DNA of 64,000 nucleotides, taken from assembly GCF_016892705.1 (NCBI RefSeq), contig NZ_JAFEMB010000001.1, forward strand, positions 124,001-188,000, written 5' to 3'. Below, one piece after another: positions 33,692 through 63,905 of this stretch (positions are counted from its first letter, which is position 1; each line of letters starts with the position of its first letter). This DNA is from Microvirga pudoricolor (GTDB taxonomy: Bacteria > Pseudomonadota > Alphaproteobacteria > Rhizobiales > Beijerinckiaceae). The notes beneath the pieces are model-generated. The model saw nothing but the letters and a program-made list of their open reading frames with translations. It did not search any database and was not told where the DNA came from. The translations under genes and the position numbers were made by a program.

Positions 33692-35029
33692 ATGTCTGAG
33701 ATCATTGGAAAGAACCTGACGCGCCGGAACTTCCTGGCGACGACCGCCGCAGCCGGTGGCCTGGGGCTCATGGGCGTGCGCCCGGCCTTCGCCAACGTGA
33801 ACTGGAAGAAGTTCGCGGGCACGACCATCGACGTGAACCTCACGAAAAGCCCCCGCGGCGAACTTCTGACTAAGTACCAGAAGGAATTCGAGGACCTGAC
33901 GGGCATCAAGGTCAATTCCGAGATGACCCCCGAGCAGCAGCAGCGCCAGAAGGCCGTGATCGAGCTGACCTCCGGCAAGCCGAGCTTCGACGTCATCCAC
34001 ATCAGCTATCACGTCCAAAAGCGCCAGTTCGAGAAGGGCCGCTGGCTCGCCGACCTGTCGGGCTTCCTGAAGGATGCCAACCTTACCGACCCGTCCATGG
34101 TCGAGAGCGATTTCGCCGAGGCCGGCATGGCCTTCGCCAAGGACCAGCAGGGCGCGATCCGGTCCCTGCCCTTCTCGGTGGATTACTGGATCGTCTATTA
34201 CAACAAGGACCTTTTCGCGAAGAAGAACCTGGCGTTCCCGAAGACCTTTGCGGAGATGATCGACACCGCCCAGGCCCTGACGGATCCCAAGGCCCAGACC
34301 TACGGCTTCGTGGCCCGCGGCCAGAAGAACGCCAACACGCCGGTCTGGACGAGCTTCATGCTCGGCTACGACATGCCGTCGGTCGATCCCAGCGGCAAGC
34401 TGATGACGGACACGCAGGAGGCCATCGACGCCGCCAAGATGTACCAGACCCTCCTGACCAAGGCCTCGCCCACGGGGGTCGCGGGCTTCAACTGGGCCGA
34501 GTGCCAGTCCGCCTTCCTTCAGGGCCGGGTGGGTATGTGGTTCGACGGTGTCGGCTTCGCGCCTCCCCTGGAGGATCCGGAGAAGTCCCGCGTGGTCGGC
34601 AAGGTCGGCTACGGCGTCATGCCGAAGGGCCCCAAGGTCCAGGCGGCCGCCACCACGGGCGACGGCATCGGCGTCACGGAGGCCAGCACCAAGAAGGAAG
34701 CCGCCTACCTCTATTGCCAGTGGGCGATCTCCAAGGAAATGGGCGCTCGCCTCCTTCAGACCGGCTCCGGCGTGCCGTTCCGCAACTCCATCCTGAACGA
34801 CGCGGAAGTGCGCAAGGGCGTGAAGATGCCGGCCGAGTGGGTCGACGCCGTCGCCCAATCGGCCAAGATCAGCCGCCTGACGCTGCCTGTCATCATACCG
34901 GTGACGGAATTCCGCGACACGATGGGCGTGGCGCTCACCAACCTGCTCGCCGGCGCGGACGCAGCGGCCGAGCTGAAGCGCGCGACGGAAGAGTTCAAGC
35001 CGGTGCTTGAGCGCAGCGAGCGGGCTTGA
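33692..35029 (+). CDS. Tat-exported sugar ABC transporter substrate-binding protein
   Basis: The 445-aa protein is a family 1 (COG1653) extracellular solute-binding protein. Its leader carries a twin-arginine motif (NLTRRNFLATTAAAGG), so it is probably exported folded by the Tat pathway, cleaved near residue 36 (AFA-NV). Features such as FEDLTGIKVNSEMTPEQQQR, SGKPSFDVIHISYH and SVDYWIVYYNKDLFAKK are typical. ATG 33692 starts the leader; the frame upstream is open but not coding-like. The stop overlaps the permease start (TGATG). The substrate is unknown. Confidence 0.9.
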   Translation: MSEIIGKNLTRRNFLATTAAAGGLGLMGVRPAFANVNWKKFAGTTIDVNLTKSPRGELLTKYQKEFEDLTGIKVNSEMTPEQQQRQKAVIELTSGKPSFDVIHISYHVQKRQFEKGRWLADLSGFLKDANLTDPSMVESDFAEAGMAFAKDQQGAIRSLPFSVDYWIVYYNKDLFAKKNLAFPKTFAEMIDTAQALTDPKAQTYGFVARGQKNANTPVWTSFMLGYDMPSVDPSGKLMTDTQEAIDAAKMYQTLLTKASPTGVAGFNWAECQSAFLQGRVGMWFDGVGFAPPLEDPEKSRVVGKVGYGVMPKGPKVQAAATTGDGIGVTEASTKKEAAYLYCQWAISKEMGARLLQTGSGVPFRNSILNDAEVRKGVKMPAEWVDAVAQSAKISRLTLPVIIPVTEFRDTMGVALTNLLAGADAAAELKRATEEFKPVLERSERA

Positions 35030-35967
35030 TGACCGCAGTCTCCACACCCGCTGTCCCTGCCAGCGAAGAAGAGGCCCGCCCCCACAAGGGCGGGCACCTC
35101 AAGCCATCCTACTGGCCCTTCGTTCTGCCCGCTCTCCTCGTCGTCGGGGCCGTCATCCTGTTCCCCTGGGTCTTTACGATCTGGATGAGCCTGAACGAAT
35201 GGCGCGTCGGATCCGACACCAGCTTTGTCGGACTTGCGAATTACATCCGCCTCGCCACGGACATGAGATTCCTCGAATCTCTCTGGCACACGATCCTCTA
35301 CACCGTCCTGTCGGTGGTCGCCCCCCTGATTCTCGGGACGGCGGCGGCCCTGGCCTTCAACACCAAGCTGCCCTTCCGCGGTCTCCTGCGTGGCATCTTC
35401 GTCATGCCCATGATGGCGACGCCGGTGGCCATCGCGCTGGTCTGGACCATGATGTTCCACCCGCAGCTCGGCGTCCTGAACTATCTCCTGTCCCTCGTCG
35501 GCATCCCGCCGCAGGCCTGGGTGTTCCATCCGGCCAGCGTGATCCCGTCTCTCGTCCTCGTCGAGACCTGGCAATGGACGCCTCTCGTCATGCTCATCGT
35601 GCTTGGGGGCCTCGCGGCTATTCCCCAGGAGCCCTATGAAAGCGCCCAGATCGACGGTGCGAATGCGTGGCAGAAGTTCCGCTACATCACCCTGCCGATG
35701 ATCTCACCCTTCCTCATGGTGGCGGTCATCATCCGCACCATCGACGCGCTGAAGAGCTTCGACATCATCTACGCCATCACGCAGGGCGGTCCCGGCACGG
35801 CCTCCGAGACCATCAACCTCTATCTCTACAGCGTCGCCTTCGCCTATTACGACGTGGGCTACGGCTCCGCCATCGCGGTCGTGTTCTTCCTGCTCATCAT
35901 TCTGCTGTCCCTGGTTCTGCTGCACCTGCGCCAGCGCGCAGCCTGGTCCTCGGGAGACGGCAAATGA
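35029..35967 (+). CDS. Sugar ABC transporter permease (MalF/UgpA type)
   Basis: The 312-aa inner-membrane protein has six predicted helices after a 30-residue hydrophilic N-terminus. The EAA loop reads EPYESAQIDGANAWQKFRYI, followed by TLPMISPF. It starts on the last base of the binding-protein stop and its own stop overlaps the next permease start (ATGA). It forms the channel with the following permease. Confidence 0.92.
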   Translation: MTAVSTPAVPASEEEARPHKGGHLKPSYWPFVLPALLVVGAVILFPWVFTIWMSLNEWRVGSDTSFVGLANYIRLATDMRFLESLWHTILYTVLSVVAPLILGTAAALAFNTKLPFRGLLRGIFVMPMMATPVAIALVWTMMFHPQLGVLNYLLSLVGIPPQAWVFHPASVIPSLVLVETWQWTPLVMLIVLGGLAAIPQEPYESAQIDGANAWQKFRYITLPMISPFLMVAVIIRTIDALKSFDIIYAITQGGPGTASETINLYLYSVAFAYYDVGYGSAIAVVFFLLIILLSLVLLHLRQRAAWSSGDGK

Positions 35968-36788
35968 ACCTCCGCAAGATCGTCCATGGCACCTGGATGG
36001 CGTTCTGTGTCTTTCTGCTCGTGTCGCCCGCCCTGTTCTTCTTCATCTGGATGCTGTCGCTCTCGCTCAAATACGAGATCGACAACGGCGCCTATCCGCC
36101 CATCCTGATCCCCGAGCGGATCGCCTGGAAAAACTACGCAGGCGTCTTCGAGTCGAACAATTTCCTGCTCTATTTCAAAAACAGCATCATCGTAACGGGC
36201 GGCGCTACGCTCCTGGCCTTGATGGTCGGAGTGCCGGCGGGCTACGGCATCGCCCGGATGCGGGCCACCAAGTCCGCCATGGTGATCATGATCGCCCGCA
36301 TGACGCCGGGGCTGTCGTTCCTGATCCCGCTGTTTCTGCTGTTCCAATGGCTCGGCCTTCTCGGCACCCTGGTGCCCCAAATCCTGATCCATCTGGTCGT
36401 GACGGTACCGATCGTGATCTGGATCATGATCAGCTATTTCGAGACGACGCCCCTGGAACTGGAGGAAGCCGCCATGATCGACGGCGCGACCCGTTGGCAG
36501 GTGTTCCGCAACGTGGCGTTGCCGATCGCCAAGCCCGGCATCGTGGTGGCGTTCATCCTGTCGGTCATTTTCTCTTGGAACAACTTCGTGTTCGGCATCG
36601 TGCTGGCGAGCCGCGAGACCAGGACCCTGCCGGTGGCCGTCTACAACATGCTGTCCTTCGAGCAGGTCAGCTGGGGACCGCTCGCGGCTGCGGCTCTCAT
36701 CGTCACGCTGCCTGTTCTGATCTTGACCATCGTGGCGCAGCGCCAGATTATCGCCGGCCTCACAGCCGGAGCCGTGAAGGGCGGCTAA
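35964..36788 (+). CDS. Sugar ABC transporter permease (MalG/UgpE type)
   Basis: The 274-aa permease has six predicted helices; the EAA loop reads [20 protein letters not shown], followed by ALPIAKPG. It overlaps the preceding permease by 4 bp and precedes the ATPase gene by 58 bp. It is the second half of the channel. Confidence 0.92.
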
Positions 36789-36846
36789 GCGCCCTCACCC
36801 ATCCATTGATAGGCCCTGTCGGGCCAAGAACGAACGGAAATACGCC

Positions 36847-37926
<1,080 letters not shown>

Positions 37927-37990
37927 CGCCGACCTCCCCTAGGACCGTCATACGCTTGGGCGGACCGATCATTCTCAAGGCTTGGGACCC

Positions 37991-38344
37991 ATGGCAGAAC
38001 CACGACGCGTTGGAGTCGCTGCGCGATACAGCGACCTCGTCATCCTCGGCGATACGGCGCATTTCTCGGGTTACGTACCGGAGAACTCCGAAGGCCTCAC
38101 CGTGCGCGAACAAACGCAGGATGTGCTCGACCAGATCGAGCAATCCTTGCGCGAGATCGGCAGCAACAAGACGAAGCTGCTCAGGGCGACGATCTGGCTG
38201 TCGTCCATGGGTTTCTACGACGAGATGAACGGCGTCTGGGACGCATGGCTCGAACGGGGACACGCTCCGGCCCGGGTTTGCGTCGAATCGCGACTGGCAA
38301 ACCCCGCCTACGCGCTCGAAATTCAGGTGACGGCGGCGCTCTGA
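37991..38344 (+). CDS. RidA (YjgF/YER057c/UK114) family protein
   Basis: The 117-aa protein belongs to the Rid family. RidA proper hydrolyses reactive enamine/imine intermediates made by PLP enzymes; other Rid subgroups have related or unknown roles. The conserved arginine is in GHAPARVCVESRLANP and a Glu lies in YALEIQVTAAL. The ATG at 37991 is preferred over a TTG nine bases upstream. It is the last gene of the ABC operon, which suggests that the imported compound yields a reactive imine or keto intermediate. Its 3' end overlaps the convergent nagA-like gene by 22 bp. Confidence 0.85.
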   Translation: MAEPRRVGVAARYSDLVILGDTAHFSGYVPENSEGLTVREQTQDVLDQIEQSLREIGSNKTKLLRATIWLSSMGFYDEMNGVWDAWLERGHAPARVCVESRLANPAYALEIQVTAAL

Positions 38345-39363
38345 CGGCGGGAGCGGTAGACCTCGCCGGCGAGCATGACCTGACGGATCCGAAGATCCGG
38401 ACCCCACTCCACTTCCCCTGGATCCAGAACGATCCCATGTTTCGCGAGCGCAGGCTGCATGGCGGCGATCGGGTGATCGTGCGCCATCGCGATCGCTTCG
38501 TCGAAAGTGCAAAGCCCCCAGTCCACGACGTTGCGGACGGCATCGTCCAGGGTCAGCGACGAACCGGCCAGGTAGGTGCTCCGGGGCAATCTGACGGTGC
38601 CGTCGCCGGAGCGTTCCACGACCATGCCTGCGAATGGGTACTCGCCCGGCGGTGCGTAGGCCGCCGCGACCGCGTCCGTGACGAGGATGGATCGGGCCAG
38701 CGACTTGGCGCGCAGCATCACCTTGAGAGCCGAGGGCGGGATGTGGATCCCGTCCGCGATGAATGTGGCCACGAGCCGATCTTCGCTCAGCTGAGCGAAA
38801 AGCGAATTGGCGAACTTGTGATGAGTTTGCGCGATCCCATTGCCGAGATGGGTCGACAGCGTGGCCCCCGCCGTCGCCGATCGGCCAATGGTCTCCACGT
38901 CGGCGGACGAATGCCCGACCGCCACGATCTTGCCGCCCTCCACGGCTGCCCGCACGAAGCTCTCGCTTCCCGCCTGCTCGGGCGCCAGCGTGATCAGCAA
39001 AATCGGCCGGCTCAGGCCCGCTTCCACCCGCGCCACGAGATCGATATCGGGCGGGATCATCACCTCGCGCGGATGGCAGCCCGCATAACCTTCCGTGGGG
39101 TTCAGAAACGGTCCTTCGAGATGGTAGCCCGGCACCATGCGGGGCCCGAGGCGGCTCTCGCGCACCGCGTGATCGAGCGCTCGAAAGCGTACCGCCAGGG
39201 TCGCCTCATCGGCGGTGATCAAGGTGGGAAGGCAGAGGGTCACGCCGGTTTCCAGCATGCCGGCCAGCGCTCTGTCGAACGCTTCCGGGGTCAGGCCGGC
39301 ATCGTTGAAGTCGACGCCGGCAAAGCCGTTGACCTGAAGATCGAAAAGGCCCCCGGTGATCAT
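38323..39363 (-). CDS. nagA: NagA-like N-acetylglucosamine-6-phosphate deacetylase, short N-terminus
   Basis: The 346-aa amidohydrolase is predicted to remove the acetyl group from GlcNAc-6-phosphate. Key sites are present: the Gln-X-Asn variant of the metal motif (FDLQVNGFAGVDFND), Glu in YHLEGPFLNP, His in VAVGHSSAD and STHLGNGIAQ, catalytic Asp in VTDAVAAAY. Compared with E. coli NagA (382 aa) the N-terminal 45-55 residues, which form part of the beta-sandwich, are missing: ATG 39363 lies at the QVNG motif, 5 bp after the nagB-like stop, and the open frame upstream shows no NagA-like sequence. It is the last gene of the ATPase-permease-nagB-nagA operon. Confidence 0.85.
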   Translation of the reverse strand: MITGGLFDLQVNGFAGVDFNDAGLTPEAFDRALAGMLETGVTLCLPTLITADEATLAVRFRALDHAVRESRLGPRMVPGYHLEGPFLNPTEGYAGCHPREVMIPPDIDLVARVEAGLSRPILLITLAPEQAGSESFVRAAVEGGKIVAVGHSSADVETIGRSATAGATLSTHLGNGIAQTHHKFANSLFAQLSEDRLVATFIADGIHIPPSALKVMLRAKSLARSILVTDAVAAAYAPPGEYPFAGMVVERSGDGTVRLPRSTYLAGSSLTLDDAVRNVVDWGLCTFDEAIAMAHDHPIAAMQPALAKHGIVLDPGEVEWGPDLRIRQVMLAGEVYRSRRQSAAVT

Positions 39364-39368
39364 CGGCC

Positions 39369-40136
39369 TCAACCCTCCTGCGCGTCGGCCAGTGTCTCGG
39401 GCGACAGGCGCGACGCTGCGGGGCGGTCCAGGAAGACCGTACAGCGGGAATGGGTCTTCAGGATCGACGCCGGATAGTCGGGCGTGATCGGGCCCTCGAT
39501 GGCGGCCTGGACGGCCACTGCCTTGCGTTCGTCCGGGACGGAGATCACCAGCACGTCGCTCTTCAAGATCTGCTGGATGCTCATGGAGATCGCCTTGGCG
39601 GGAACATCCTCGAGGGACGGGAACCAGCCCTCCCCCAGTTGCTGGCGGCGGCAGCCTTCGTCGAGCTCGACGACGATATACGGCGACCGGGTATCGAAAT
39701 CCGCAGGCGGATCGTTGAAGGCCAGGTGGCAGTTCTCGCCGATCCCCGCGAAGCACACGTCGATGGTCTTTCCGTCGATGGCCCTGTTGAGGCGGACGAT
39801 CTCCTCGTCGAGATCTTCGGCGTCGCCGGTCACCTCCGTGAAGACCGCCAGGCCGGGAACTCGGGAGACGAAACGCTCCTGCAGATAGCCTCGAAAGCTC
39901 GCCGGATGGGTTTTGGGCAGCCCTACATATTCGTCGAGATGATAGGCCGAGACCTTCGACCAGTCGATGCCGGGGATCTCAACGAGGGCGCCAAGAACCT
40001 CGAACTGACTGGCCCCGGTCGCCACGATGATGTTCGCCTCCCCGCGCTCCGCAATGGCGTTCCTGATCGCGGCGGCACCTTGCGCCGCGGCCGCCGCGCC
40101 GAGAGACTGCTTGTCGTCGAAGAGCCGTATATCCAT
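39369..40136 (-). CDS. NagB-like glucosamine-6-phosphate deaminase/isomerase family protein
   Basis: The 255-aa protein belongs to the NagB/6-phosphogluconolactonase superfamily; NagB converts GlcN-6-phosphate to fructose-6-phosphate and ammonia. The sugar-phosphate loop [30 protein letters not shown] and [14 protein letters not shown] are clear. In E. coli NagB the corresponding catalytic segment is VGNDGHIAFNEP; here Asn replaces the catalytic Asp and Cys replaces the Gly before His, so it is closer to the YieK-like subgroup and its activity could differ. ATG 40136 was chosen; an in-frame TTG at 40148 is possible. It precedes nagA by 5 bp. Confidence 0.82.
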
Positions 40137-40157
40137 CGTGTCAGCCAATCCTGAGGG

Positions 40158-41795
40158 TCAGAGCAGGGCCCGTTCGTCGCGGCCCATGAGACGAAAAGCA
40201 CAATAGATGGCGGCGCCGCTGATGAGAAGCAGAACCGTGGAAAGTGCCGCCGCCGTGCCGTAATCGCCGTCGTTGATCGCGATGTAGATCCGGACCGGCA
40301 TCGTGGCGGTGCTGCCGACATACAGCACGAGGGACGAGGACAGCTCGTTGATGGCCGTGACGAAGCTCAGCATGCCGCCCGCGATGATGCCGGGAACGAT
40401 CAGCGGCACCGTGACCTTCATGAAGGCCTGGAGCGGGCTGTAGCCGAGCGAGATGGCAGCCTCCTCCATGCTCGGGCTGACCTGCCTAAGCGCGGAGGCG
40501 GACGACCGAACCGAATACGGCAGACGCCGGATGAAAATCGACAGGATGATGATGAGCGCCGTTCCGGTGATGGCGAATGGCGGAGAGTTGAAAGCGGCCA
40601 CGAACGCGATGCCGACCACGATCCCCGGCATCACATAGGGAACCATGAGGGTTGCATCGAGAGACGAGGTGTTCACGTTCGTCCGGCGCGCCACGAGGCA
40701 GCCGATGATGGTGCCGATGGTCACCGTCAGGAACACGGTCGCGGCAGAGAACACCAGGGAGTTCTGGACCACATCGGCGAGGTTGTAGAGGATCCGCCGG
40801 TAGCTATCGAGTCCCAGGCCCGGTTGGAACACCGGCCCGTTCGTGCGCCGGATCGAATAGATCGCCGCGATGATGGCCGGCATCGCACCCGCAAGGGCGA
40901 TGAAGTAGACCGCCACGTGGGCCACCACGTTCCAGACGCCCGTCAGCTTCTTCTTGACGGGCTTGTTGATGAGGTTGCCGTGGTAGACATTCTTGCGGGA
41001 CATGTAGCGCTGCCCGAAGACGAACAGCATCGACAGGAGGATCAGCATGATGCTGATGGTCGTCGCCATGCCGAGATTGCTGCCGATCTCCGCCGAGTAA
41101 AGCGTGTAGGCCTCGGTTGCCAGCACGCTGAAGCCGCGGCCGATGAGCCGTGGCGTTCCGAAATCCGCGATGGAGTGGATCAGGGCGAGAAGCCCCCCCG
41201 CCGAGAGAGCCGGCAGGACCAGCGGGAAGGAGATCTTCATCACGCGCTTGAAGGGCGTCATGCCGAGGCTCTCGGCGGCCTCTTCCAGGGAGCGGTTGAT
41301 GTTCCCGAGCGCGCCGGATGCCAGGAGATAGACGTAAGGATAGAACTTGAACGAGAAGACGATGAGCACGCCCCACATGCCGAAAATGGGCGGCATGAAG
41401 AACCCCCACGACATGAGGGTCTGGCGGACGAGACCGTTGGAGCCGAACAGGACGATCCACGAATAGGCGCCGATGAAGGGCGGAGAGACCAGGGCCAGGA
41501 TCGCCAAGAGCGACACGAACCGGCCGCCCTTGATCTCGAGCCGGGCCATGCAGAAGGCCATGATGGAGCCGAGGACCAGCGATCCCACGAGACCGCCGAA
41601 GCCGACGATGAGCGTGTTGACGAAGGCGGTTCGGAAACGCGGCGTCGTGAAGAAGCGCTCGTAATTCGCCAGGGAGAAGTTTCCGGCCGCGTCCTGCATG
41701 CTCGACAACAGCACCGATCCCAGCGGGATGACGAGCAGGACGATCAGGATCAGCCAGGCCAGGATGCTGACGACGGTCCAGAAATTGAGCCGCAT
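40158..41795 (-). CDS. AfuB/FbpB-type fused ABC permease
   Basis: The 545-aa membrane protein carries two permease domains in tandem (about 12 helices), each with an EAA loop: SLEEAAESLGMTPFKRVMKI and SMEEAAISLGYSPLQAFMKV. This fused type occurs in ferric-iron (FbpB), phosphonate, thiamine and AfuB-type transporters. AfuABC of Actinobacillus carries hexose phosphates, not iron. The gene starts 1 bp after the ATPase stop and is followed by the NagB- and NagA-like genes, so an amino-sugar phosphate is the inferred substrate. Confidence 0.88.
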   Translation of the reverse strand: MRLNFWTVVSILAWLILIVLLVIPLGSVLLSSMQDAAGNFSLANYERFFTTPRFRTAFVNTLIVGFGGLVGSLVLGSIMAFCMARLEIKGGRFVSLLAILALVSPPFIGAYSWIVLFGSNGLVRQTLMSWGFFMPPIFGMWGVLIVFSFKFYPYVYLLASGALGNINRSLEEAAESLGMTPFKRVMKISFPLVLPALSAGGLLALIHSIADFGTPRLIGRGFSVLATEAYTLYSAEIGSNLGMATTISIMLILLSMLFVFGQRYMSRKNVYHGNLINKPVKKKLTGVWNVVAHVAVYFIALAGAMPAIIAAIYSIRRTNGPVFQPGLGLDSYRRILYNLADVVQNSLVFSAATVFLTVTIGTIIGCLVARRTNVNTSSLDATLMVPYVMPGIVVGIAFVAAFNSPPFAITGTALIIILSIFIRRLPYSVRSSASALRQVSPSMEEAAISLGYSPLQAFMKVTVPLIVPGIIAGGMLSFVTAINELSSSLVLYVGSTATMPVRIYIAINDGDYGTAAALSTVLLLISGAAIYCAFRLMGRDERALL

Positions 41796-41796
41796 C

Positions 41797-42858
41797 TTAT
41801 CGTGCTCCGAGGGAAACGCGCGCGCCCTGCTGATCGAACCCCATCACGTGACCGCGTCGGAAGGCCAGTGTCACCGGATGTCCCTGTTCCATCGTCAGCG
41901 ACGGCTCGGGATCCGCGACTTGCACCACCAACTTCCCAACGGAAGTCTTGGCGGCGATATGGGCCTCTCGGCCGAGATAGGTGTACTTTTCGACCGTGCC
42001 GGGCACCCGGATCGTGTCGGCCGGCAGGTCGCCCTCGCCGAGGCGGATATGCTCGGGCCGGATCGCCCATTGGCTCAGGCTGGCTGGAGCATCCTGGAGA
42101 ATCGAAGCTTCGAGGGCCGGGTCGGTCCCGCGTTGAAGCACGTTCATGGTGCCCACGAACGAGGCCGCGAATAGGGTTTGCGGCGATGAGTAAATGTCCT
42201 GCGGCGTGCCGATCTGCTGAATGCGTCCCGTGCTCATCACGCAGATGCGGTCGGAGATGGCGAGCGCTTCCTCCTGGTCGTGGGTGACGTAGATCGCGGC
42301 GATCCCGATCTTCTTCTGGATATCGCGGATCTCGTCCCGCAGGTCCACGCGGAGCTTGGCATCGAGGTTCGAGAGCGGCTCGTCCATGAGGAGGAGCTTA
42401 GGCCTGATCACCATCGCGCGCGCAAGGCCGATGCGCTGCTGCTGCCCGCCCGACATCGCTGCCGGAAGACGGTCCCGGAAATCTGTCAGGCGTGCCGTCG
42501 CAAGCGCCTCGGCGACACGCCTCTGGATGTCGGCCGCCGGGACCTTGCGGGCCTTCAGGCCGAAGGCCACGTTTTCGCTGACGGTCAGGTGCGGAAAAAC
42601 AGCGTAGTCCTGGAACACCATGCCGATGTCGCGCTTGTGGGCCGGCACGGTATCGAGGCGCCGGCCGTCGAGCTTGATATTCCCGTCCGACAATTCGATG
42701 AAGCCGGCGATCGACCGTAGCAGCGTCGTCTTCCCGCAACCGCTCGGACCCAGAAGCGTGAAGAACTCGTCCCTTCCCACCGAAAGAGAAACGCCGTCCA
42801 GGGCGCGCGCTGCGCCTCCATAGACTTTAGTTGCATTCTCGACTTCCAGATAGGCCAT
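41797..42858 (-). CDS. AfuC/FbpC-type ABC transporter ATP-binding protein
   Basis: The 353-aa ATPase has Walker A GPSGCGKTTLLRS, Q-loop VFQDYAVFPHLTV, signature MSGGQQQRIGLARAM, Walker [13 protein letters not shown] and H-switch YVTHDQEEAL, plus a C-terminal TOBE domain ([13 protein letters not shown]). ATG 42858 was chosen because GGGCGGGC precedes it and it begins the standard MAYLEVENATKVYG start; the frame upstream runs through the promoter region. It is the first gene of the leftward operon, divergent from its cognate binding-protein gene at 43000. Confidence 0.9.
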   Translation of the reverse strand: MAYLEVENATKVYGGAARALDGVSLSVGRDEFFTLLGPSGCGKTTLLRSIAGFIELSDGNIKLDGRRLDTVPAHKRDIGMVFQDYAVFPHLTVSENVAFGLKARKVPAADIQRRVAEALATARLTDFRDRLPAAMSGGQQQRIGLARAMVIRPKLLLMDEPLSNLDAKLRVDLRDEIRDIQKKIGIAAIYVTHDQEEALAISDRICVMSTGRIQQIGTPQDIYSSPQTLFAASFVGTMNVLQRGTDPALEASILQDAPASLSQWAIRPEHIRLGEGDLPADTIRVPGTVEKYTYLGREAHIAAKTSVGKLVVQVADPEPSLTMEQGHPVTLAFRRGHVMGFDQQGARVSLGAR

Positions 42859-42892
42859 GCGCCCGCCCTTGAACTTATTGCTGCCCTTGCTT

Positions 42893-42909
42893 CCTTTACA
42901 CCATAAAGG
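42893..42909. promoter_or_regulatory. Perfect 6-bp inverted repeat in divergent promoter region
   Basis: CCTTTA-CACCA-TAAAGG lies between the divergent ATPase and binding-protein genes, 34 bp before the ATPase start. The arrangement suggests an operator for the DeoR regulator encoded at 45016 or for another factor. Confidence 0.5.
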
Positions 42910-42912
42910 TCG

Positions 42913-42930
42913 ATGTTTAGATTGCAACAT
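42913..42930. promoter_or_regulatory. Candidate DeoR/GlpR-type operator
   Basis: ATGTT, eight bases, AACAT: half-sites and spacing match those of the GlpR operator of the DeoR family (ATGTT-N8-AACAT), though the inner CG dinucleotides are absent. It lies 3 bp from the repeat at 42893-42909 in the shared promoter region of an operon pair that includes a DeoR gene. Confidence 0.5.
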
Positions 42931-42999
42931 ATGGCCGTTCGTTTTGCGACATTCCTTAACGCAGGGTCACACTGCATCTTCGGTCTTCGGGAGGAAGCG

Positions 43000-43974
43000 A
43001 TGAAGACGTTCACGAGTTTGGTTGCGGGCGCCATCGGCGTCGTCGCCCTGGGAGGCACTGCCTTCGCGCAGGGCAAGGTCGTTCTCTACACGGCTCACAA
43101 GACATCCCTTGTGCAGAAGCTGGCGCCGCAATTCGAAGCGGAGACCGGCATCAAGACCGAGGTCATTCAGCTCGGTTCGAGCGAAATTGTCCGCCGCGCC
43201 CGCGCGGAGATGAGCGCCCCGAAGGCCGATGTGATCTGGAGCATCACGGGCGACATTCTTGGCAACAATCCGGACCTCCTGGAGCCCTACAAGCCCAAGG
43301 ATTTCGACGCCATCGACAAGCGCTTCGTGAAGAGCGACGCGTGGACGCCCTACACGGCGGTGATCTACGTGCTGATGCAGAATACCAAGATGGTGCCTGA
43401 TGCCGATACGCCCAAAAACTGGGCCGAGCTCAGCAACCCGAAATGGAAGGGCAAGGTCGCCTCCGCCCGCGCCGACAATTCCGGCTCGGCCTTCCAGCAG
43501 ATGATGACGGTCCTGTCGGTCTTCGGCGACAAGGGGTGGGACGAGTACCAGAAGCTGGCCCAGAACTTCGTCTTCACGGACAGCTCCGGCGCCGTACCGC
43601 GCTACGTGGCCGACGGGGAGGCTCCATTGGGCCTGACTCTCGAGGACAATGCGCTTGAGTACAAGGTCGGCGGCGCTCCCGTGAAGATTGCCTACATCGC
43701 GGACGGCACGACCGCGTCTCCGGACGGCGTCGCCCTCATCAAGGGCGCGCCTAATGCTGAGAACGGCAAGAAGTTCATCGATTGGGCCCTGACCAAAAAG
43801 ACCCAGGAGGCCCTCGTCCAGGAAGGCGGGCGCCGGTCCGTCCGCACGGACGTTAAGGGACCCGGCGACGTTCCTCCGCTGAGCAGCCTCAACCTCGTCA
43901 CCTTGAAGAACATCAAAGATCTGGGCGGCACGGAGGCGATCCTAAACCAGTGGCGCAAGGCCACCGGCCAGTAA
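43000..43974 (+). CDS. AfuA-like periplasmic binding protein, probably for a sugar phosphate
   Basis: The 324-aa protein has a Sec signal peptide (residues 1-23, GGTAFA-QG) and the two-lobed fold of the FbpA/AfuA/PhnS class: VVLYTAHKTSLVQKLAPQFE, TGIKTEVIQLGSSEIVRRAR, SITGDILGNNPDLL, GLTLEDNALEY. In ferric-binding FbpA proteins the last region holds a Tyr-Tyr pair that binds iron; here the matching positions carry Glu-Asp-Asn, so iron transport is unlikely. Together with the NagB/NagA genes this favours a sugar-phosphate ligand, as shown for AfuA. ATG 43000 follows a strong GGGAGGAAG site. The PP2C-like gene follows after 34 bp. Confidence 0.87.
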   Translation: MKTFTSLVAGAIGVVALGGTAFAQGKVVLYTAHKTSLVQKLAPQFEAETGIKTEVIQLGSSEIVRRARAEMSAPKADVIWSITGDILGNNPDLLEPYKPKDFDAIDKRFVKSDAWTPYTAVIYVLMQNTKMVPDADTPKNWAELSNPKWKGKVASARADNSGSAFQQMMTVLSVFGDKGWDEYQKLAQNFVFTDSSGAVPRYVADGEAPLGLTLEDNALEYKVGGAPVKIAYIADGTTASPDGVALIKGAPNAENGKKFIDWALTKKTQEALVQEGGRRSVRTDVKGPGDVPPLSSLNLVTLKNIKDLGGTEAILNQWRKATGQ

Positions 43975-44008
43975 GGCCGACCTGCGACACGAGACCTGAG
44001 CGAGACTG

Positions 44009-45001
44009 ATGCGGATCGAAGCGTTCTCCCAAGGCAAGGTTTTCCTGCGGCCGGAAGACAACGAAGACAGCTTCATCGTCATCCCAGGCATCGGTTACGC
44101 CGTCATCGACGGCGTAACCGACCACAACGGCACCTATTTCGGCGACGTGAAGGCCGGGCGTTTCGCCTCGCAGACCGTCAAGCGGGCTCTGGGCGAGTAT
44201 CTCCTGTCTCGGCAGGATTCCGGGTCCCGCCCCGATCCGCAGGATCTTGTCGGCCATCTCTCGAAGCGGCTCCGGGAAGCCTATGAGCACCATGGTCAAC
44301 TCGAAAATGCCCGCGCGGACTTGAACAGGCGTGCCGGCTGCGCCTTCACGGTCGCGATCCATGCGGGCGACAGCCTCGACATCGTGGCGGTCGGCGACGC
44401 GGGCGTCCGTCTCAACGGCCGCGACGTTCACCAGATGGCCAAGCCGCTCGATGTTGTGACATCCCTCATGCGGCGCGAGGCCTGGAACCTGTTTGCCGCC
44501 GAAGGTTTCGGCGAGCTGGACAGCGACTCGCTCTCCGCTTCGATCAATCGCTACGGCGTCAACCACCAAGCCGATCCGAGGATCACGGATAAGCGCAAGG
44601 CGACAATCCGCGAGCGCGTCCTCCAGGCCTTCGCGGGCATGTTCCAAGGGATCCCGCCGGCGGAGGTCGAGCACCTCATCGCGAATGGCATCGCTCATGG
44701 CCAGAGACGATTTTCCAACAAGGCGGATCTCGAACTCGCCTATGGTCTCTTGGACGGCTTCGATGTGCCGGATCAGCATGTCCTCCACCTCGCCTTTCCC
44801 GTGAAGGATGTCGAGCAGATCGAGCTCTTCTCGGACGGCTATTTCAAGTGCGGGGACGATTTCGGCGTCGCGTCCTGGGAAGAAGCCTTCCGCGAGGTCG
44901 AGAAGGTGGACCCTCACAAGATCGGCCCGTACATGAGCACCAAGGGCACCACGTCATCGGCCTACACGGACGACCGAACCTATCTCGGAGTCCAGCTCTA
45001 G
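44009..45001 (+). CDS. PP2C-like phosphatase in the amino-sugar transporter operon
   Basis: The 330-aa soluble protein is a divergent member of the PPM/PP2C metal-dependent phosphatases. Motifs in order: RPEDNEDSF (residues 14-22), the metal-binding AVIDGVTDHNG (Asp34-Gly35), CAFTVAIHAGDSLDIVAVGD with the Gly-Asp motif, LFSDGYFK, and the C-terminal DDRTYLGVQL that matches the metal-binding Asp-Asp-X-Thr motif. An inserted region of about 100 residues lies between the last two. It could dephosphorylate a protein or the imported sugar phosphate; the sequence cannot decide. It lies between the binding protein (34 bp) and the DeoR gene (14 bp). Confidence 0.75.
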   Translation: MRIEAFSQGKVFLRPEDNEDSFIVIPGIGYAVIDGVTDHNGTYFGDVKAGRFASQTVKRALGEYLLSRQDSGSRPDPQDLVGHLSKRLREAYEHHGQLENARADLNRRAGCAFTVAIHAGDSLDIVAVGDAGVRLNGRDVHQMAKPLDVVTSLMRREAWNLFAAEGFGELDSDSLSASINRYGVNHQADPRITDKRKATIRERVLQAFAGMFQGIPPAEVEHLIANGIAHGQRRFSNKADLELAYGLLDGFDVPDQHVLHLAFPVKDVEQIELFSDGYFKCGDDFGVASWEEAFREVEKVDPHKIGPYMSTKGTTSSAYTDDRTYLGVQL

Positions 45002-45015
45002 GGAGCTGCAGGAGA

Positions 45016-45816
45016 ATGCTGGGGCAAGCCATACTCCTTCAAGAGGCCAAGCTCGACGCCGACGAGCGCCAGCGGCTCATCGTCGACGCCATCGCGAAGA
45101 AGGGCGCCATCTCGGTCGCGACCTTCGCCCGCGAATGCGGCGTCACCACCCAGACCATCCGCCGTGACCTCGAGAAGCTCGGAGCCCAAGGATTGATCCA
45201 GAAGGCCCATGGGGCGGCCTTTGCGGGTCCGGGAACCGTCGTTCAAGCCTACAAGGACCGCAGCGTCACGCAGGTCGAGGTGAAGCGCAGGCTCGTCCAG
45301 AGACTGGCGGAATTCATCGAGCCCGGCGCGACAATCTTCGTAGGTCTCGGCACGACTTTCAATTCAGTGCATGAAATCCTGCGAGACCAGCCGAGAATTA
45401 TCCTGGCGACGAACAATCTGGGCGTCGCCCATAGCTGCACCTTCAATACCGGCGTGACGCTTTTCGTGTTCGGAGGCTACCTGCGCCGCAACGACACCGC
45501 GATCCTGGCCGTCACGGATGGCGGCCTGCACGACCGGTTCAAGTTCGATGTGGCCATCTTCGGGGCCAATGCGGTGGATGAGGACGGCGCTTTCCTGGCC
45601 TTTGACCCTCTGGAGGCCGAATTCACGCGGGACGTGATCAAGGCCTCTCGCAGGGTCATCTTCGTGATCCAGGAGGAAAAATTCAACAGCCGGGCCCCGC
45701 ACGTCGTGGCACATATGCAGGATGTCTCGGTCCTCGTCACCAATTGCGACGTGCGCACCAAGGTGGCCAACCCTGAAATCGTCAAAGGGACACGGCTGAT
45801 CAATATCGAAGGCTGA
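45016..45816 (+). CDS. DeoR-family transcriptional regulator
   Basis: The 266-aa protein has an N-terminal DeoR helix-turn-helix (about residues 15-70; RQRLIVDAIAKKGAISVATF, TTQTIRRDLEKL, LIQKAHGAA) and a C-terminal sugar-phosphate-sensing domain related to phosphosugar isomerases (IFVGLGTTFNSVHEIL, DVAIFGANAVDEDGAFLAFD). DeoR proteins usually repress and respond to a phosphorylated sugar, which fits the NagA/NagB context. ATG 45016 follows CAGGAGA. It is the last gene of the rightward operon; a GC hairpin follows. It likely controls both divergent operons. Confidence 0.9.
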   Translation: MLGQAILLQEAKLDADERQRLIVDAIAKKGAISVATFARECGVTTQTIRRDLEKLGAQGLIQKAHGAAFAGPGTVVQAYKDRSVTQVEVKRRLVQRLAEFIEPGATIFVGLGTTFNSVHEILRDQPRIILATNNLGVAHSCTFNTGVTLFVFGGYLRRNDTAILAVTDGGLHDRFKFDVAIFGANAVDEDGAFLAFDPLEAEFTRDVIKASRRVIFVIQEEKFNSRAPHVVAHMQDVSVLVTNCDVRTKVANPEIVKGTRLINIEG

Positions 45817-62189: not shown

Positions 62190-63905
62190 TCAGCCTCCCA
62201 CCGAGAAGGTCTGGCCTGCGATCATGGAGAGATGCTCGACAATCGGACCGAGAGCGAGAGCCGGGAAGAACGTTAGGCCTCCGACGATCAGGATGACGCC
62301 GACGAGAAGGCCGATGAACAGTCCTCCGTGGGTCGGGAACGTGCCCGAGGAGACCGGCACCGTCTTCTTGGCTGCCATGGATCCGGCGATCGCGAGCGCA
62401 GGCGCGATGACCAGGAACCGGCCCATGAGCATCGCCATGCCGATGGTCAGGTTGTACCATGGGGTGTTGCCCGACAGGCTGCCGAAAGCCGAACCGTTGT
62501 TGGCGGCACCCGACACATACGCATAGAGCACCTCCGAGAAGCCGTGCGGTCCCGGATTGCCGATGGACGCGAGGCCCGCGGGCAGAACCACCGCTAACGC
62601 CGTGAAGCCCAGCATGGCGAGCGGAAGGCACAAAATGGCCAGGATCGCCATCTTGACCTCCTTGGCCTCAATCTTCTTGCCGAGATATTCGGGGGTCCGG
62701 CCGACCATCAGGCCTGCCACGAACATGGTGAGCACGACGAAGAGGAGCATTCCGTACAGCCCGGCGCCGACACCGCCGATGACGATCTCGCCCAGCTCCA
62801 TGTTGATGAGCGGGATCAGCCCACCCAGCGGCATGAAGCTCGAATGCATGGCATTCACCGCGCCGCAGCTCGCGGCCGTCGTGATGACGGCAAACAAGGC
62901 GGACAAGGCGGTGCCGAAGCGGACTTCCTTGCCTTCCATGTTGCCGCCCTCGACGCCGAGCGCGTGCACCAGCGGATTGCCCGAGGCTTCCGCCCAATAT
63001 GCGACGGCGACGCCGACGATGAAGATGACGCCCATGGCGCCAAGGATCGCCCACCCCTGGCGCTGATCGCCGACCATACGGCCGAAGACATTGGTCAGTG
63101 CCGCGCCGATGGCGAAGATCGACACCATCTGGATCAGGTTGACGAGGGCGTCCGGATTCTCGAACGGGTGGGCCGAATTGGCGTTGAAGAAGCCGCCGCC
63201 ATTCGTGCCGAGCATCTTGATCGCAAGTTGCGAGGCCACGGGACCGACGGCGATCGTCTGCTTGGCACCTTCCAGGGTTGTGGCGCCCACATAGGCAGAG
63301 AGTGTCTGCGGCACACCCCGGGCCACGTAGAACACCGTCAGGACCGCGCAGAGCGGCAACAGCAGGTAGAGGACTGCGCGACTCATATCAGTCCAGAAAT
63401 TGCCGACACTCTTTGCTGATGCGCGCGAGAACCCGCGGATGAGCGCGACCGCAATGGCGATGCCCGTGGCGGCGGAGACGAAGTTCTGCACCGTCAAGCC
63501 TGCCATTTGGACCAGATACGACATGGTGCTCTCGCCACCATAATTCTGCCAGTTCGTGTTGGTCATGAAACTGACGGCGGTGTTGAAGGCGAGATCGGGC
63601 GCTACCGCGGCCATGCCCATCGGATTGTACGGCAGAACGTCTTGAAAGCGTTGCAGCGCATAAAGAACCAAGAAGCCGAGCAGGTTGAAGGCCAGCATCG
63701 ACAACGCGTAGGTCAGCCAGTGCTGCTCTTCGCGCTCACCGGTGCCCGAAAGCCTATAGAGCACGGCCTCGACGGGCCGCAGGACGGGAGAAAGGAGGGT
63801 GTGCTCTCCGCTGAAGACACGCGTCATGTACCAGCCCAGGGGCTTCACGAGCGCTAGGACGAGAGCGCAGAAGATGAGGATCTGGATCCAACCGTTGATG
63901 GTCAT
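62190..63905 (-). CDS. kdpA: Potassium-transporting ATPase potassium-binding subunit KdpA
   Basis: The 571-aa integral membrane protein is the potassium channel-like subunit of KdpFABC, with about ten helices and four selectivity-filter-like loops, such as [50 protein letters not shown] and [12 protein letters not shown]. The selectivity-filter glycines are present. It starts 11 bp after kdpF. The stop codon is followed after 3 bp by a small membrane-protein gene. Confidence 0.96.

Follow-up and report, generated by a model that had tools for sequence, protein, structure and literature searches.

An AfuABC-like transporter that is encoded with a PP2C phosphatase in Microvirga pudoricolor and other bacteria

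What does an ABC transporter import if it is encoded beside amino-sugar enzymes, and why would a PP2C phosphatase be encoded with it? These questions are raised by a 64,000-nucleotide stretch of the 4.77-Mb genome of Microvirga pudoricolor (contig C8, 124001-188000; hereafter, the window), which contains genes for an ABC transporter similar to AfuABC, enzymes similar to NagA and NagB, a PP2C (PPM) phosphatase, and a DeoR-family regulator. An initial annotation had described these seven genes (38323..45816), and our gene calls and family searches agree as to their content, positions, and strands (Table 1). It had also proposed that the transporter brings in amino-sugar phosphates such as GlcNAc-6-P or GlcN-6-P directly, so that no kinase is needed, and it treated the phosphatase as incidental. 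We find that the odd part of the locus is the phosphatase, not the missing kinase. The reading that we favor, which we give about an even chance of being correct as a whole, is that an AfuABC-type importer under the control of DeoR takes up a phosphate ester, which in this branch is probably an amino-sugar phosphate, and that the PP2C encoded beside it is dedicated to this importer.

Conservation of the transporter with the phosphatase

We searched 61 genomes for PP2C and found it in 14 of them, including the genome that contains the window. All 14 of the PP2C loci that we fetched from 13 relatives also contain the solute-binding protein (SBP), the ATPase, and the permease. We then scanned the contigs of named genomes: a single PP2C sequence gave no match, while an alignment of PP2Cs identified 75 loci, in Microvirga, Devosia, Bosea, Aureimonas, Rhizobium, Rhodospirillales, and more distant groups such as a Deinococcota bin. 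The SBP is within 5 kb of PP2C in 70 of the 75 loci, and the ATPase or the permease is within 6 kb in 69. Of the five loci without the SBP, two are cut by contig ends (L085 and L095) and three show no transporter (L084, L099, and L105). The 75 named loci partly overlap the set from relatives (several are from the same genomes). Judging from these comparisons, PP2C and the transporter genes are conserved together as a module.

Searching with a profile of the SBP, we found at least 85 matches (E = 1e-40) across 385 genomes of the class; five candidates were scored per genome, and these counts are lower bounds. We fetched 60 SBP regions (58 on profile matches and two from the window's own genome). 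PP2C is beside the SBP in just 8 of the 60. These eight are the best matches to the profile from outside the window's genome. PP2C thus marks a single clade within the SBP family, and most of the SBP's relatives lack it.

The constant set is thus the transporter and PP2C, with NagA and NagB as accessories. Of the 75 named loci, 10 have NagB close to the module and 8 have NagA there with a score of over 200 bits; the weaker NagA matches of L100 and L104 were left out of the second count. Given the over-representation of Devosia and Microvirga, these occurrences are not independent events. In view of these counts, we rejected NagA and NagB as a conserved core, and the seven genes are not conserved together as a set.

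The modules vary in other ways. In Devosia and an unclassified bin, a second AfuA-like set of SBP, ATPase, and permease adjoins the module on the left (L040, L041, L043, L047, and L054; ~30% identity between SBPs). In Devosia algicola (L086, 5789-9000), the matches to the ATPase, SBP, and PP2C are each split in two, as they would be after frameshifts or sequencing errors.

The imported ligand

The closest relatives of the SBP with known structures are phosphate-ester binders. When we compared it to the PDB with phmmer, AfuA was the top hit (5e-28), followed by 8x1a and P5PA, ahead of the iron binders; a profile of 15 relatives gave the same top three. AfuABC from Actinobacillus pleuropneumoniae is described as an importer of hexose and heptose phosphates (PMC4546632), 8x1a is titled as the glucose-6-phosphate-binding protein VcA0625, and P5PA is described as binding pyridoxal phosphate (PMC8427247). 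The structural kinship with AfuA is also apparent from an AlphaFold model (15 sequences; pLDDT 66.3): AfuA entries lead the Foldseek matches and 8x1a is sixth, with TM-scores of 0.58-0.70. The SBP is 21% identical to 6lkg, which is listed as a two-component system protein and which we take to be HptA of S. aureus, a sensor protein for glucose-6-phosphate; E215, D242, S280, R282, and D284 of the SBP are shared with it. HptA is described as a sensor and not as part of an importer (PMC8774646).

In AfuA, the phosphate is surrounded by Ser37, Gly38, Thr60, Ser148, Gly149, Thr150, and Gly185 (PMC8427247). We examined the equivalent columns in 67 module SBPs, namely the window's and those from 66 named loci (the other nine lack the SBP or a cleanly called gene for it). 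Most of the contact residues are kept: S60 (60 of 67), S161 (67), G162 (66), S163 (67), S196 (67), and G197 (62). Position 61, which corresponds to Gly38, is G in 55 of the 67 and S in the window's protein. Except for this S and for Thr60, the window's protein has the cradle of Ser, Thr, and Gly at the N-termini of helices, and it shares its fold and most of this cradle with AfuA, its closest kin by sequence; P5PA has the same fold and cradle. Because the cradle is kept across the module SBPs, the imported ligand likely carries a phosphate ester.

At the ring site, the module SBPs have conserved residues of their own: E215 (66 of 67) and D242, R278, and R279 (all 67). The acidic residues would suit an amine, and we think that the ligand in this branch is probably an amino-sugar phosphate. 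The link to amino sugars, which the initial annotation had noted, recurs as NagB and NagA in Microvirga and Devosia and as a kinase, a SIS-type deaminase, and NagA in Tagaea.

In the window's NagB and NagA, the catalytic residues of the known enzymes are largely kept, and both proteins score below the family cut-offs. NagB (130.1 bits against TIGR00502, with an equivalog cut-off of 236.9) retains the residues that align with what we take to be the catalytic Asp72 and His143 and the phosphate-site Lys208 and Arg172, but position 142, just before the catalytic His, is C, and position 148 is D instead of E148. A Cys directly before the catalytic His is found in 10 of 11 module NagBs and in two non-module NagBs (L147 and L148); the other nine relatives' NagBs, the NagB of B. 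subtilis, and the module NagB of L034 have Gly instead. On a quick tree with SH-aLRT support only, the module label requires 2 changes, as compared to a mean of 7.9 if labels are shuffled (0 of 500 shuffles were as low), so the module NagBs form their own cluster. At E = 0.001, nothing in Pfam matches the NagA-like protein. Its match to TIGR00221 (nagA; 181.5 bits, cut-off 225.65) begins at position 53 of the model, and the N-terminal domain of NagA is missing. It retains residues that align with E131, H195, H216, H251, and D273 of E. coli NagA, in what we take to be the numbering of that protein, and K replaces R227.

Several observations weigh against our favored reading. In AfuA, loss of H205, D206, and E229 is reported to abolish binding (PMC4546632), and this sugar motif is not kept in the 67 module SBPs; in the window's protein, depending on the placement of gaps, H205 aligns with D216 or E215, D206 aligns with N217 or D216, and E229 aligns with S240. 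Because the motif is lost, the sugar part of the ligand cannot be predicted. Q269 of AfuA and the ring contacts His203 and Gln267 of P5PA are not kept either; the phosphate contact Thr60 of AfuA falls on a variable column; and the model of the SBP is of middling confidence. Furthermore, NagB is missing from the neighborhood in 65 of the 75 module loci (some of these contigs are short), NagB of the window's type is also found away from the module in Microvirga, and a kinase is encoded in the Tagaea operon (L100) and, judging by its cluster, in L077. Finally, in the seven Devosia loci that we scanned, there is no counterpart of the DeoR operator described below before the separate NagB and NagA genes (the contig of L047 stops at NagB).

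The alternative that survives best, though we consider it unlikely, is that the importer carries some other phosphate ester, and that NagB and NagA were recruited in some lineages only or belong to a neighboring pathway. This would account for the scarcity of NagB near the module and for the differences from AfuA at the ring site. Also, other neighbors accompany the SBPs that branch off most deeply in their tree (L089, L092, L096, and L102), including a TauD dioxygenase in L089. On the other hand, amino-sugar genes adjoin the module in three separate settings (Microvirga, Devosia, and Tagaea), and the module NagBs cluster together.

Slightly less probable still is that an unphosphorylated amino sugar, or an oligomer of one, is imported, and that a kinase encoded elsewhere forms the substrate of NagA and NagB. 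The absence of a kinase from the locus holds for ROK and BadF-type kinases (there is no match to PF00480 or PF01869 within the window; PTS enzymes were not searched for). But L100 encodes, on one strand, DeoR, a NagK-like kinase (67 bits, cut-off 370), a SIS-type deaminase-like protein that is not homologous to NagB, the SBP, PP2C, the ATPase, the permease, and a NagA that is above the TIGR00221 cut-off; and L077 contains genes from the same kinase and SIS clusters. The window's genome also has, at C8:1068 kb, genes for a NagK-like kinase, GntR, a NagB-II-like protein, and NagA; near this set are AnmK and a SIS protein that we read as MurQ-like. Since kinases are present in a homologous operon and elsewhere in the genome, a cluster without a kinase proves nothing about the form that is imported, and the argument from the missing kinase fails. 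Other Microvirga offer a further parallel: of 12 loci in relatives with NagB of the window's type (58% identity or above, including the window's own), 4 adjoin the module and 8 lie elsewhere, with NagA beside NagB in 7 of those 8. Ten neighbors that we scanned in five of the non-module loci included three LacI-type proteins (L150, L152, and L153) and three SBP_bac_8 proteins (one in L147 and two in L152). Nevertheless, the nearest relatives of the SBP bind phosphate esters, and the phosphate cradle is kept even in the SBP of L100. A Na/Pi transporter also adjoins the Aureimonas modules: the genes directly after the permease at L046:2257-3987 and L052:2180-3982 belong to one cluster, and the L046 gene encodes a Na/Pi transporter with a PhoU domain (L046 was scanned; L052 was assigned by cluster). 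Such a transporter might let out phosphate that derives from imported esters.

The Microvirga loci with NagB of the window's type and no PP2C module are L147-L154 (genomes G017, G006, G034, G021, G030, G036, and G009). In the scanned loci L147 and L152, SBP_bac_8 proteins of 396-398 amino acids are interleaved.

A transporter for 2-aminoethylphosphonate (PhnS2T2U2) is improbable, even if it might be the automatic label. The best NCBIfam names for the SBP, ATPase, and permease are phnS2, PhnT2, and PhnU2, but all three are below the cut-offs (128.8 of 392.75, 355.1 of 457.7, and 198.5 of 593.25 bits, respectively), the scanned neighbors include no phosphonate gene, and both the sequence and the structure searches favor AfuA. 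Ferric iron (FbpABC) can be nearly dismissed: the fold and superfamily are shared and many FbpA chains are among the matches, but AfuA-type proteins rank above iron binders, the regulator and enzymes at the locus are of sugar type, and, as the initial annotation had pointed out, the SBP lacks the Tyr-Tyr pair of the iron site (there is no YY anywhere in it). Thiamine transport was rejected because scores were below the family cut-offs. Of the initial interpretation, then, the phosphate-ester binder, the link to amino sugars, and the sugar-type regulators survive, while the kinase argument does not.

The PP2C phosphatase

PP2C is only weakly similar to PP2C_2 in Pfam (23.1 bits, cut-off 24), but its predicted structure (pLDDT 83) matches PstP, tPphA, and other PP2Cs, with TM-scores of about 0.4-0.6 for the bacterial ones. 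Of the 71 called genes, we aligned 66 with the window's PP2C, leaving out five whose length was odd; D34, G35, D130, D276, D321, and D322 are invariant in all 67 sequences. Thus, both the fold and the metal-binding acidic residues of the family are present. As compared to PstP and tPphA, the window's PP2C is ~90 residues longer, in helices, and is encoded in a transporter operon; because PstP is ~95 residues shorter, we take the four helices at ~146-235 of the model to be an insertion. Also, the Arg before the NED motif, which we take to be a phosphate-binding residue of PP2Cs, is not kept.

In one lineage of Microvirga, PP2C was replaced by a different PP2C and not lost. The SBPs of L061, L064, and L070 are 75-77% identical to the window's, but their PP2Cs are just 42-43% identical to it. 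Conversely, as compared to a second type of Microvirga module (L066, L072, L074, and L076), their PP2Cs are 62-67% identical and their SBPs are 50-53% identical. In supported trees of 37 rows each, their SBPs group with those of the window and Bosea while their PP2Cs group with the second type (some PP2C branches are long, including the window's). The gene order in these loci is changed as well, to SBP-DeoR-PP2C. That PP2C was replaced instead of lost argues that the module needs it.

What might PP2C act on? We found no match to the Hanks kinase family (PF00069) in the window's genome, G000, while the control search matched 11 of 14 genomes; other kinase families were not searched. There is an HPr-kinase match at C10:14390. 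Our tentative proposal, which we think has perhaps one chance in three, is that PP2C is a true fifth component of a family of phosphate-ester ABC importers, with uptake and phosphatase being inherited, or even replaced, as a unit. Rather than being an antagonist of a Hanks kinase, it could be a small-molecule phosphatase that acts on the ester, or it could gate the importer as a switch (for example, via Ser-phosphorylated HPr). A literature search, with most subscription papers outside its reach, found no description of a PP2C-transporter system or of an AfuA system for amino-sugar phosphates. A table in one review names a kinase-phosphorylated ABC transporter, Rv1747, and the accessible part of that review has nothing on PP2C beside an importer (PMC6213207).

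Regulation and layout of the locus

Unlike AfuABC, the window's system has divergent operons, with PP2C, DeoR, and NagA/NagB attached. We compared 57 intergenic regions between divergent ATPase and SBP genes, of which we counted 30 as DeoR-bearing. The word TGTTGCAA, on either strand, is present in 29 of these 30 and in none of the other 27. The exception, L058, was classed as DeoR-bearing solely because of a distant DeoR match (123 bits). The predicted operator resembles TTTCGTATTGCAACA, and the two copies in the window are its best two sites in 64 kb (21.4 and 15.2 bits; the next site has 8.0 bits), with the first copy being one of the 34 training sites. When up to 2 mismatches are allowed, the 17-mer from Microvirga has a single site in the genome, and the reversed control gave one chance match. 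Thus, the divergent promoter of the module contains a sequence that is specific to DeoR-bearing loci.

The regulators of the modules are of the DeoR or RpiR-SIS types. In other Microvirga (L019, L021, L022, L027, and L029), a second type of module has neither DeoR nor NagA/NagB; instead, an RpiR-SIS regulator follows PP2C (L021 was scanned; the others were assigned by cluster). Promoters without DeoR share CTTTACAA (17 of 27).

Table 1. Genes and predicted regulatory sites of the module in the window.
Feature	Position	Strand	Basis
NagA-like deacetylase, 346 aa, lacks the N-terminal part of NagA	38323..39363	-	Family search, gene call, residue alignment
NagB-like deaminase, subfamily with GENCH at the active site	39369..40148	-	Family search, alignment
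ABC permease, two permease halves fused, 545 aa	40158..41795	-	Family search
ABC ATPase with TOBE domain	41797..42858	-	Family search
Predicted sigma-70-like promoter of the binding-protein operon	42895..42923	+	9/12 matches; region has no excess of such sites relative to shuffles
Predicted DeoR operator, copy 1; overlaps the weak promoter-like -10	42914..42937	+	Motif scan
Predicted DeoR operator, copy 2; direct repeat, 22-bp step	42936..42959	+	Motif scan; outside the training set
AfuA-like solute-binding protein, 324 aa, signal peptide judged by eye	43000..43974	+	Sequence and structure searches
PP2C (PPM) phosphatase, no signal peptide by eye; four helices at ~146-235 look inserted	44009..45001	+	Structure model, alignment
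DeoR-family regulator	45016..45816	+	Family search, gene call

The gene for NagA starts at 39363 and not at the start of the open reading frame (39756), and DeoR starts at 45016. NagB starts with TTG at 40148 or possibly with ATG at 40136. The Pfam families at the locus are BPD_transp_1 (permease), an ATPase with TOBE, SBP_bac_8/11/6 (SBP), Glucosamine_iso (NagB), and DeoR. Convergent to NagA, and overlapping it by 22 bp (38323-38344), is a sugar-type ABC transporter with a UgpC-like ATPase and a RidA-like protein (33692-38344). Farther away, 62190-63905 encodes the potassium pump subunit KdpA, and the large adjoining genes are probably the rest of the kdp operon.

Under our favored reading, DeoR would repress both operons (ATPase-permease-NagB-NagA and SBP-PP2C-DeoR) until it is released by a sugar phosphate. 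The phosphate ester would be imported by the transporter, NagA would remove the N-acyl group, and NagB would deaminate and isomerize the 6-phosphate. PP2C would be an active phosphatase dedicated to the transporter, and its target could be a phosphorylated protein that gates uptake or the imported ester itself.

To our knowledge, few ABC importers of ready-phosphorylated sugars have been described. If our reading is correct, it would extend these importers to amino-sugar phosphates in soil Alphaproteobacteria, and it would correct the iron or phosphonate labels for a whole clade. It would also offer a first clue as to why an importer is accompanied by a PP2C phosphatase.

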